Position numbers and translations under genes: made by a program
Part shown: one piece after another, positions 1-10,893 of the stretch
How positions within the stretch are numbered: position 1 is the stretch's first letter
Layout: each line of letters begins with the position of its first letter
The notes under the pieces: generated by a model
Databases searched by the model: none
Told to the model about the DNA's origin: nothing
Seen by the model: the letters and a program-made list of their open reading frames with translations, nothing else
From: an uncultured Flavobacteriales bacterium
GTDB taxonomy: Bacteria > Bacteroidota > Bacteroidia > Palsa-965
Length of the DNA stretch: 46,854 nt
NCBI GenBank assembly: GCA_903873905.1
Contig: CAIQQJ010000062.1
Location: 1 to 46,854 of the forward strand
Direction of reading: 5' to 3'

Positions 1-4
1 TCAT

Positions 5-12
5 TAACTTTG
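5..12 (+). promoter_or_regulatory. Bacteroidota -7 box (TAACTTTG) ahead of the tRNA pair
   Basis: TAACTTTG matches the Bacteroidota housekeeping consensus TAnnTTTG. It lies 19 bases before the first tRNA-like copy, so a transcript would run through the broken copy into the intact tRNA-Arg. The -33 region lies outside the window. Assignment by motif and position only. Confidence 0.5.
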
Positions 13-30
13 CCCTCGCATTCAAAAAAT

Positions 31-109
31 GCACCTGTAGCTCAACTGGATAGAGCATCGGTTTTTCCCGGAGGGACTCCTTCGGAGCTAAACCGAGAGT
101 TGCGTGTTC
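31..109 (+). pseudogene. Broken tRNA-Arg copy with 22-base insertion in the anticodon loop
   Basis: Bases 31-65 are identical to the 5' half of the intact tRNA-Arg at 130-203 (acceptor 5' strand, D arm, 5' anticodon stem). Then 22 extra bases (66-87) interrupt the anticodon loop next to the anticodon. The insert can fold as CTCC-TTC-GGAG. After it the tRNA resumes with CTAAACCGA. The variable loop and 5' T-stem (97-109) have about three mismatches, and the sequence then runs into a T tract. The 3' T-stem strand and the 3' acceptor strand are missing, so it cannot form a complete tRNA. A decaying tandem duplicate is the simplest reading. Confidence 0.8.
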
Positions 110-129
110 TTTTTTTATACTATTTTTTT

Positions 130-203
130 GCACCTGTAGCTCAACTGGATAGAGCATCGGTTTTCTAAACCGACGGTTTCGTGTTCGAGTCACGACAGGT
201 GTA
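130..203 (+). tRNA. tRNA-Arg (anticodon TCT)
   Basis: A full cloverleaf can be drawn. Acceptor GCACCTG (130-136) pairs with CAGGTGT (196-202) with a G-U at the end, and the discriminator is A203. The anticodon arm is TCGGT/ACCGA with loop TTTCTAA, giving anticodon TCT, which reads AGA/AGG. The T arm is TCGTG/CACGA with loop TTCGAGT. CCA is not encoded. A near-copy with a disrupted anticodon loop sits just upstream. Confidence 0.93.
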
Positions 204-209
204 CTCGGT

Positions 210-247
210 AAATCCTCAATAAATTATATTTGTTGAGGATTTTTTTG
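210..247 (+). terminator. Rho-independent terminator after tRNA-Arg
   Basis: A perfect 10-bp inverted repeat, AAATCCTCAA (210-219) and TTGAGGATTT (233-242), is followed by a run of T. It starts six bases after the tRNA, so the tRNA unit is closed before the next gene. Confidence 0.85.
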
Positions 248-363: not shown

Positions 364-2046
364 ATGAAATATCTAATTATAGGAGCAGTTGCAGGAGGAG
401 CTAGCACTGCAGCAAGATTGAGAAGATTGGATGAACAGGCTGAAATTGTTCTTTTCGAAAAAGGAGAATATATTTCTTATGCCAATTGTGGTTTGCCCTA
501 TTACATTGGTGATGTAATTAAAAATAGAAATTCATTGTTGATCCAAACCGCAACCTCATTCAATCAAAGATTCAATGTTGATGTGCGAACAATGACAGAG
601 GTTATTGCCATTAATCCTGCAACAAAAACGATAACGGCATTAAATCACAAAACAGGAAAAAGTTTCGATGAGACGTATGACAAATTGGTTTTGTCACCTG
701 GTGCTGAACCCATGCGCCCTCCTCTTCCTGGAATTGCCAATGATGGCATTTTCACACTGAGAAATGTTGCGGACACTGACTATATCAAAGCATACGTACA
801 AAAGAAGAATGTAAAAAAAGCAGTTGTGATTGGTGCTGGGTTTATCGGATTGGAAATGGCTGAAAATCTGCACGACCTTGGTTTGGAAGTTTCAATCATT
901 GAAATGGGAAATCAAATATTGGCTCCTTTGGATTTTCCAATTGCTGCAATTGTTCAACAACACATTCGTTCAAAAGGAGTCAACTTGCTTCTCAATAATG
1001 CAGTTGCTTCGTTCGAGAAAACGGATTCGAATCTAAAAGTGATTCTAAAAAGTGGTGAAGCATTGGATGCAGATATTGTATTGCTTTCAATTGGTGTCAA
1101 ACCTGATACAAAATTGGCAATCAATGCTGGTCTTAAACTTGGGAATGCAAAAGGAATTTGGGTCAATGAATATTTGCAAACTTCTGATCCAGATATTTAT
1201 GCAGTTGGTGATGCGATTGAATTTGAGAATCCAATTACCAAACAATCCATGAATACTTATTTGGCTGGTCCTGCCAACAAGCAAGGAAGAATTTGTGCCA
1301 ATAACATTGTTTTAGGCAATAAGCAAAAATACAACGGTGCAATTAATACTGCAATTGTAAAAGTGTTTGACATGACCATTGCAACTGCGGGAACTGCATC
1401 TAAGAATCTGACCAAAGCGGAAATTAAGCATGTCGTTTCTACAACGAGTAGCGGTTCGCATGCCGGCTATTATCCGGGTGCAAAACAAATGAGCATTCAA
1501 ATTGCTTTTTCTCCGGAAGACGGGAAAATTTTCGGTGCGCAGATTGCAGGTTATGATGGTGTGGATAAACGAATTGATATTTTGTCTTCCGCAATACAAA
1601 GAGGAAGTACAATTTATGAATTGACAGAATTTGAACATGCTTATGCCCCACCCTATTCGTCTGCGAAAGATCCTGTTAACATGGCAGGTTTTGTTGCGGA
1701 AAATATTTTATCGGGAAAACTAAGTGTTTTCTATTGGAATGAATTTGATAAAGTTTCTGCCAATGATATTTTACTCGATGTCAGAAATAAAGATGAATTT
1801 GAAAGAGGTTCAATTGCCAATGCAATAAATATTCCAGTCGATTCTCTTCGAGAGAGATTAGGTGAATTAGACAAAAACAAAAACATTTTCATTTATTGTC
1901 AAATTGGATTGAGAGGATATCTTGCTCATCGAATTCTAAAACAAGTTGGCTTCACGAAAGTTTTAAATATGTCCGGTGGATATCAATTATGGGAAATTTG
2001 CAATAAGGAAATGAAGTTGTCAGAACCTTCGAAAGTATTGAGCTAA
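364..2046 (+). CDS. CoA-disulfide reductase-like flavoprotein fused to a rhodanese domain
   Basis: 560-residue cytoplasmic FAD/NAD(P)H disulfide reductase with a C-terminal sulfurtransferase domain. Visible: N-terminal FAD-binding motif GAVAGGA (7-13); the single redox Cys42 in NCGLPYYIG, as in CoA-disulfide reductases and NADH oxidases; a second dinucleotide fold GAGFIG (157-162); the FAD-contact motif YAVGDA (279-284); and a rhodanese domain (about 460-550) with active loop CQIGLR and Cys512. The family (CoADR-RHD) reduces CoA disulfide or polysulfide/persulfide using NAD(P)H; the fusion suggests persulfide handling. The ATG at 364 is chosen because it directly begins the FAD fold and the upstream in-frame TTG overlaps the promoter box. 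It looks monocistronic and may be controlled by the Crp/Fnr-like site at 295-310. The exact substrate is not decidable from sequence. Confidence 0.9.
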   Translation: MKYLIIGAVAGGASTAARLRRLDEQAEIVLFEKGEYISYANCGLPYYIGDVIKNRNSLLIQTATSFNQRFNVDVRTMTEVIAINPATKTITALNHKTGKSFDETYDKLVLSPGAEPMRPPLPGIANDGIFTLRNVADTDYIKAYVQKKNVKKAVVIGAGFIGLEMAENLHDLGLEVSIIEMGNQILAPLDFPIAAIVQQHIRSKGVNLLLNNAVASFEKTDSNLKVILKSGEALDADIVLLSIGVKPDTKLAINAGLKLGNAKGIWVNEYLQTSDPDIYAVGDAIEFENPITKQSMNTYLAGPANKQGRICANNIVLGNKQKYNGAINTAIVKVFDMTIATAGTASKNLTKAEIKHVVSTTSSGSHAGYYPGAKQMSIQIAFSPEDGKIFGAQIAGYDGVDKRIDILSSAIQRGSTIYELTEFEHAYAPPYSSAKDPVNMAGFVAENILSGKLSVFYWNEFDKVSANDILLDVRNKDEFERGSIANAINIPVDSLRERLGELDKNKNIFIYCQIGLRGYLAHRILKQVGFTKVLNMSGGYQLWEICNKEMKLSEPSKVLS

Positions 2047-10819: not shown

Positions 10820-10829
10820 AGAGTACTAA

Positions 10830-10893
10830 GTTGAAAAGTTGAAAAGTTGAAAAGTTGAAAAGTTGAAAAGTTGAAAAGTTGAAAAGTTGAAAA
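10830..10893. repeat. Eight-copy tandem repeat GTTGAAAA in the nrnA leader
   Basis: Eight 8-base units of GTTGAAAA (CAAC-rich on the nrnA strand), essentially perfect, run head to tail from 10830 to 10893. They lie between the nrnA start codon (10819) and its candidate -7 box (10960-10967), so they would be transcribed in the 5' leader. The unit length is prone to slippage. Confidence 0.9.

Follow-up and report, generated by a model that had tools for sequence, protein, structure and literature searches.

Recurrent palindrome-interrupted copies of tRNA genes in a family of Bacteroidota

In an uncultured Flavobacteriales bacterium, an intact tRNA-Arg(UCU) gene is preceded by a truncated copy of itself, broken in the anticodon loop by a 22-nt palindrome. 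The locus opens a stretch of 46,854 nt ("the window"), which is contig C62 of genome G000, with position 1 at the contig end. It very probably belongs to a recurrent class of palindrome-interrupted, displaced tRNA gene copies found in this Bacteroidota family. Such copies recur at different tRNAs with the same architecture, carry palindromes, and at several loci stand next to genes for small GIY-YIG nucleases. We propose, with a probability of about 0.6, that they arise through recurrent duplication of tRNA loci with capture of palindromes, plausibly driven by GIY-YIG homing nucleases.

The duplicated tRNA-Arg(UCU) locus

The features of the locus are collected in Table 1. The partial copy (31-109) starts 99 bp before the intact gene, which is the sole UCU tRNA gene found in the genome. 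Positions 31-65 equal 130-164 (35 nt, or 36 counting the preceding T), and the insert lies between gene nucleotides 35 and 36, after U34, the first anticodon base. The copy then resumes in register and fades out in the T arm, so that a preliminary description, made from the letters of the window, had the coordinates, the placement and the end of the copy right. ARAGORN and Rfam make no tRNA call at 31-129, recognising there no complete cloverleaf of a functional tRNA gene, and call only 130-204.

Table 1. Features at the start of the window (contig C62)
Feature	Position	Strand	Basis or remark
Leader	1..30	+	30/30 identical on contig C89, ahead of C89's insert-bearing unit
TAACTTTG, Bacteroidota-type -7 box (TAnnTTTG)	5..12	+	Read from sequence
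Copy of tRNA-Arg(UCU) nt 1-35, 100% identical	31..65	+	Sequence comparison
22-nt insert, two 11-nt mini-hairpins (TCCC-GGA-GGGA, CTCC-TTC-GGAG)	66..87	+	Dispersed palindromic repeat member
Copy of tRNA nt 36-57, 86% identity to 165-186	88..109	+	Ends in T arm
T/A-rich spacer	110..129	+	Second occurrence only on C89
Intact tRNA-Arg, anticodon UCU	130..204	+	ARAGORN and Rfam, 66 bits
Intrinsic-terminator-like hairpin and T run, after intact tRNA	210..242	+	Sequence

The -7 box ahead of the broken copy, already pointed out in the preliminary description, would act as a promoter element, judging from the known Bacteroidota promoter consensus, and its position makes it plausible that the broken copy is co-transcribed with the intact tRNA. 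At the single-copy, intact Arg-UCU locus of the relative G003, a similar leader and box stand directly before the tRNA. The Arg-UCU flanks read in G003, G006, G007, G008, G009 and G012 hold no comparable broken copy; this absence from relatives, named beforehand as an observation that would count against the feature, thus holds for six genomes, and at Arg-UCU only.

A second contig extends the locus. C89 ends in this leader followed by a complete unit with its insert and by 50 nt of the next unit's start, with a period of 99 nt as in the window; the complete unit differs from that of the window at only two positions (window 71 G/A and 101 T/C). The locus is therefore an array with at least two insert-bearing units; the copy first described as a tandem duplicate is real, but it is not single. 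Since the leader is present on both C89 and C62, either variants of the locus were co-assembled, or there truly are two leaders, as at the tRNA-Ser locus described below. The assembled flanks of the window and of C89 contain no GIY-YIG gene; the contig break falls within the array, and between C89 and C62 there is possibly an unassembled middle part which, like the tRNA-Ser locus, may hold a nuclease gene.

After the tRNA comes a CoA-disulfide-reductase-like gene with a rhodanese-like C-terminus (337-2046, identified by eye), which is absent beside the orthologous tRNA of G003, whose neighbours are rearranged. An Rfam match to V_AS7 under the gathering score (383-551, minus strand) lies antisense to this gene and probably reflects coding similarity. 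Further on, positions 10828-10893 hold a perfect 8-bp tandem repeat, AAGTTGAA, in 8.2 copies. The genome also encodes a T9SS sorting domain protein, which together with the TAnnTTTG box is in keeping with Bacteroidota.

The insert as a dispersed palindrome

The insert consists of exactly two 11-nt mini-hairpins, each with a 4-3-4 layout. The fold CTCC-TTC-GGAG proposed at the outset is real, but it is only half of a double mini-hairpin, TCCC-GRA-GGGA plus CTCC-TTC-GGAG. The genome holds 17 sites in all with at most two mismatches to this unit, compared to none for a reversed-pattern control, and at up to three mismatches there are 36 strand matches, a count that includes palindromic double counting, with 0-1 in the control. 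In an alignment of 22 variants, the two 4-bp mini-stems are paired in 95.5% of cells, and there are 14 double-sided compensatory cells, a value as high being reached in 0 of 500 shuffles. Because the aligned sites were picked by pattern similarity, the percentage paired is partly built in, which is not so for the compensatory changes of the second stem. Two mini-stems have better support than one long hairpin. These repeats and their covariation argue for the captured hairpin repeat that was among the origins first suggested, and the insert is very probably a captured dispersed palindrome; the idea that it might occur nowhere else does not stand. In a simple inverted-repeat count, the window insert and both inserts of the tRNA-Ser locus are not unusual, and the evidence for them lies in the repeat family, with its covariation. 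With the undisturbed tRNA at 130-204 used as the empty site, the insert shows no target-site duplication. Public genomes contain no exact match to the unit and two matches to a degenerate pattern (one a run of N, the other without a tRNA call from ARAGORN), and viral contigs contain no match to the unit.

Short palindromes that are dispersed and can lie within genes are known as REP elements, with their RAYT/TnpAREP transposases (PMC3733652, PMC6006769). Like them, the 22-nt insert is a short (20-40 bp) dispersed palindrome, although its copies number in the tens and not the hundreds. It differs in being a double 4-3-4 mini-hairpin, in its flanks, which are mostly TTTT or TTGT/GTGT where the GTAG/CGTC foot tag would be expected, and in having no adjacent RAYT. 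The three Y1_Tnp genes of G000 lie on C137, C23 and C106, contigs on which none of the listed repeat sites falls, and the link between a RAYT and the 22-nt palindrome thus failed. With neither the tag nor the adjacency, the palindromes can therefore only be called REP-like. The Y1-type transposase genes of this genome (L101, L102 and L103) each sit amid palindromic repeats of their own (e.g., ATCCCGTTAGGGAT near L101), which are unlike the 22-nt repeat.

Group I introns of bacterial tRNAs are inserted in the anticodon loop, as is the 22-nt insert. An intron is ruled out here by a length of 22 nt, far too short for this class, and by a host copy without its 3' third; the intact copy follows.

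Recurrence across the family and GIY-YIG neighbours

When the flanks of the tRNA genes of G000 are searched for partial copies, other broken ones appear. Upstream of Arg-CCG, a copy of nucleotides 1-12 and 13-30 is separated by the 22-nt palindrome TCCCATAGGGATCCCTTCGGGA. Upstream of Ser-UGA, a copy of the leader and nucleotides 1-53 holds two 22-nt palindromes, CCACATAGTGGTCCCTTCGGGA between nucleotides 1/2 and CCACAGGGTGGTCCCTTCGGGA between nucleotides 36/37. The order at this Ser locus (C145, L083 1030-1586) is leader and interrupted 5' part, GIY-YIG gene, repeated leader, and intact tRNA-Ser(UGA). The Cys locus is more decayed: its 3' half and terminator are copied downstream, with the palindrome GTCCCAACAGAATTGTTGGGAC before the copy. 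At Arg-CCT, the 3' end is copied downstream, at a contig end. To call the window feature a decaying duplicate, as was also suggested at first, is thus partly right, but overlooks that other tRNA genes, in this genome and across the family, show the same architecture.

Counting as a partial copy any match within 800 bp of a tRNA gene, on the same strand and at E≤1e-4, such copies stand beside 28 of the 193 tRNA genes in seven genomes of the family, compared to 0 in the minus-strand control and 1 when flanks were swapped. Other families, represented by four complete or near-complete genomes, give 3/86, so that the pattern is rarer there, yet present. Matches found upstream are 5' parts of the tRNA (10/12), and those found downstream are 3' parts (21/22). 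In copies that retain two collinear tRNA pieces, these are usually separated by a palindrome (e.g., TCCCGACACATGTCGGGA, CTCCGATAGCTATCGGAG, CCGGCTGAAAAGCCGG and TGGCGCCGAAGGCGCCA), which lies inside or replaces the D arm, the anticodon arm or loop, or the T loop. For most of the listed inserts, such inverted repeats arise in fewer than 1% of shuffles; the interruptions downstream at L156 and at L219 contain no clear palindrome. Lone downstream pieces begin at nucleotides 57-60, a pile-up to which the detection limit of ~14 nt may add. Different genomes have different palindromes, none of them linked to an enzyme.

Tandem arrays recur as well, with units spanning 74-99 bp. Directly upstream of an intact tRNA-Leu(UAG) on G002:C4, there are at least four units of 98-99 nt, each made of tRNA-Leu nucleotides 1-30, a palindrome and a spacer. 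In another family, the array of G013:C24, at a contig end, has three or more 74-nt units whose 5' part is tRNA-like, and Ala-GGC of G007 has a two-unit array. Tandem TCCCGATAGCTATCGGGA clusters were predicted to be pseudo-tRNAs, and among the matches listed, both of the clusters fetched were. Most single palindromes fetched alongside have no tRNA nearby, and the palindromes are therefore not restricted to tRNAs. In the limited set of journals covered, literature searches turned up neither palindrome-interrupted tRNA copies nor the TCCCGATAGCTATCGGGA palindrome.

Two sequence resemblances were seen along the way. Downstream broken copies at different tRNAs and in different genomes (L243, L152, L172 and L192) carry a T-arm motif, GGGCGAGAAG followed by a hairpin and AGCCC, behind which there may be a common element inserted in T loops. 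Upstream broken units at unrelated tRNAs (window 106-129; L292, L186 and L180) end in GTTC, after which a T-rich tract precedes an AT-rich leader.

Small GIY-YIG genes are found beside tRNAs far beyond expectation. In a hand tally over the seven genomes, ~13 of 32 small GIY-YIG genes adjoin a tRNA, compared to ~0.4 expected, for a rough binomial probability of 1e-17 in which tandem copies are not independent. G000 has three such genes, one ~115 bp after tRNA-Ala and one between the broken and intact tRNA-Ser. The gene separates an intact tRNA from a palindrome-interrupted copy at this Ser locus, and likewise at Met in G003, Asn in G005, Val in G007 and Leu in G002; at the Leu and Asn loci, the nuclease gene extends at its end into the tRNA fragment. 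The proteins linked to Ser, Leu and Asn match PF01541 above the Pfam cut-off. Single-domain GIY-YIG proteins are thus encoded beside tRNA genes at loci other than that of the window, where the assembled sequence shows none, and no GIY-YIG gene is seen alongside most other broken copies. On contig C70 of G002 (L188, L293 and L294), several GIY-YIG genes, tRNA-Leu fragments and palindromes occur together, possibly as a spreading series.

Competing explanations and a proposed mechanism

The broken copies could be plain decaying tandem duplicates, produced by chance duplication of tRNAs, with abundant REP-like palindromes entering any neutral DNA. The dispersal of the palindromes outside tRNAs and the divergence of some tRNA parts, including window 88-109, are consistent with this. 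However, with a few tens of copies per ~4 Mb, finding several within tRNA fragments of ~50 nt far exceeds random insertion, and the bias toward 5' parts upstream and 3' parts downstream and the recurrence of arrays at different tRNAs also make such passive decay improbable. The displaced part might instead be the other attachment site of a lost integrative element of the tyrosine-recombinase type. A partial tRNA copy distant from the intact gene is indeed what tRNA-integrated genomic islands leave, with their attL/attR repeats, and the many downstream 3' pieces starting in the T loop resemble classical tRNA attachment sites. But the intervals here are only tens to hundreds of bases, too short for an integrase gene, several copies extend 5' of the interrupting palindrome, and the palindrome interruptions set these copies apart from islands; neither upstream 5' copies nor tandem arrays are expected of this origin, which is quite unlikely.

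Slightly less likely still is a functional RNA device, in which co-transcribed, hairpin-bearing tRNA mimics would be decoys, attenuators or regulators of the downstream tRNA. The units, placed between promoter and tRNA, are capable of strong folding, and in a predicted fold of leader, unit and tRNA, the 5' strand of the mimic would compete for the 3' acceptor strand of the tRNA, whose own acceptor pairing probability is 0.06. The relatives that lack the copy at Arg-UCU argue against such a role. The copy might also give rise to tRNA-half-like RNA, another of the possibilities first suggested. A terminator or attenuator was rejected: the unit can form a rod with U7 behind it, yet ~18-30% of random tails fold equally well, and the C89 variant is weaker. 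An assembly artefact would fit the position at a contig end and the C89/C62 overlap with two mismatches, but it is hardly credible when the same architecture is found inside contigs at Ser, Arg-CCG and Cys of G000 and in separately assembled genomes.

A precedent for nuclease-driven duplication exists in T-even phages. SegB is a free-standing GIY-YIG homing endonuclease (PMC13096335; PMC2988022) which cuts tRNA-containing DNA, leading to tandem segmental amplification of the tRNA and nuclease genes (PMC13096335). A free-standing GIY-YIG nuclease gene adjoining tRNA genes is common to both cases. It is because SegB cuts and amplifies in this way that a GIY-YIG driver is plausible here. The genes of this family differ in being chromosomal in Bacteroidota and in encoding small single-domain proteins, and the tRNA copies differ in being partial and palindrome-interrupted, a form absent from the available parts of the SegB accounts.

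In the duplication-and-capture model, the most likely start would be a GIY-YIG homing-type nuclease breaking DNA in or near a tRNA gene. Recombination would then repair the break and duplicate a segment of the tRNA locus, repeatedly. Selection would keep one tRNA copy intact, while the other would capture a mobile palindrome and be inactivated by it, perhaps losing the cleavage site as well. The array of the window would be an example that has no nuclease. That GIY-YIG activity was the original driver of the duplications is a tentative part of the model, to which we give somewhat less than an even chance. More doubtful is a full tRNA-gene-targeting mobile system, in which the nuclease would cut in the loops of tRNA genes, spread by segment duplication and leave palindrome-armoured, uncuttable copies, some of them growing into tandem arrays between promoter and intact tRNA.

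The hairpin-broken copies beside tRNAs point to an undescribed activity, mobile or recombinational, that targets tRNA genes. What looked like a one-off oddity becomes a repeatable pattern, with about one in seven tRNA genes of the family having a partial copy as a neighbour, and annotators should be warned not to take the tRNA-like fragments of these genomes for tRNAs. If the process is nuclease-driven, it would be a chromosomal, bacterial counterpart of phage SegB, it would illustrate how essential tRNA genes can harbour selfish nucleases, and it would give palindromic repeats both a target and a trace.
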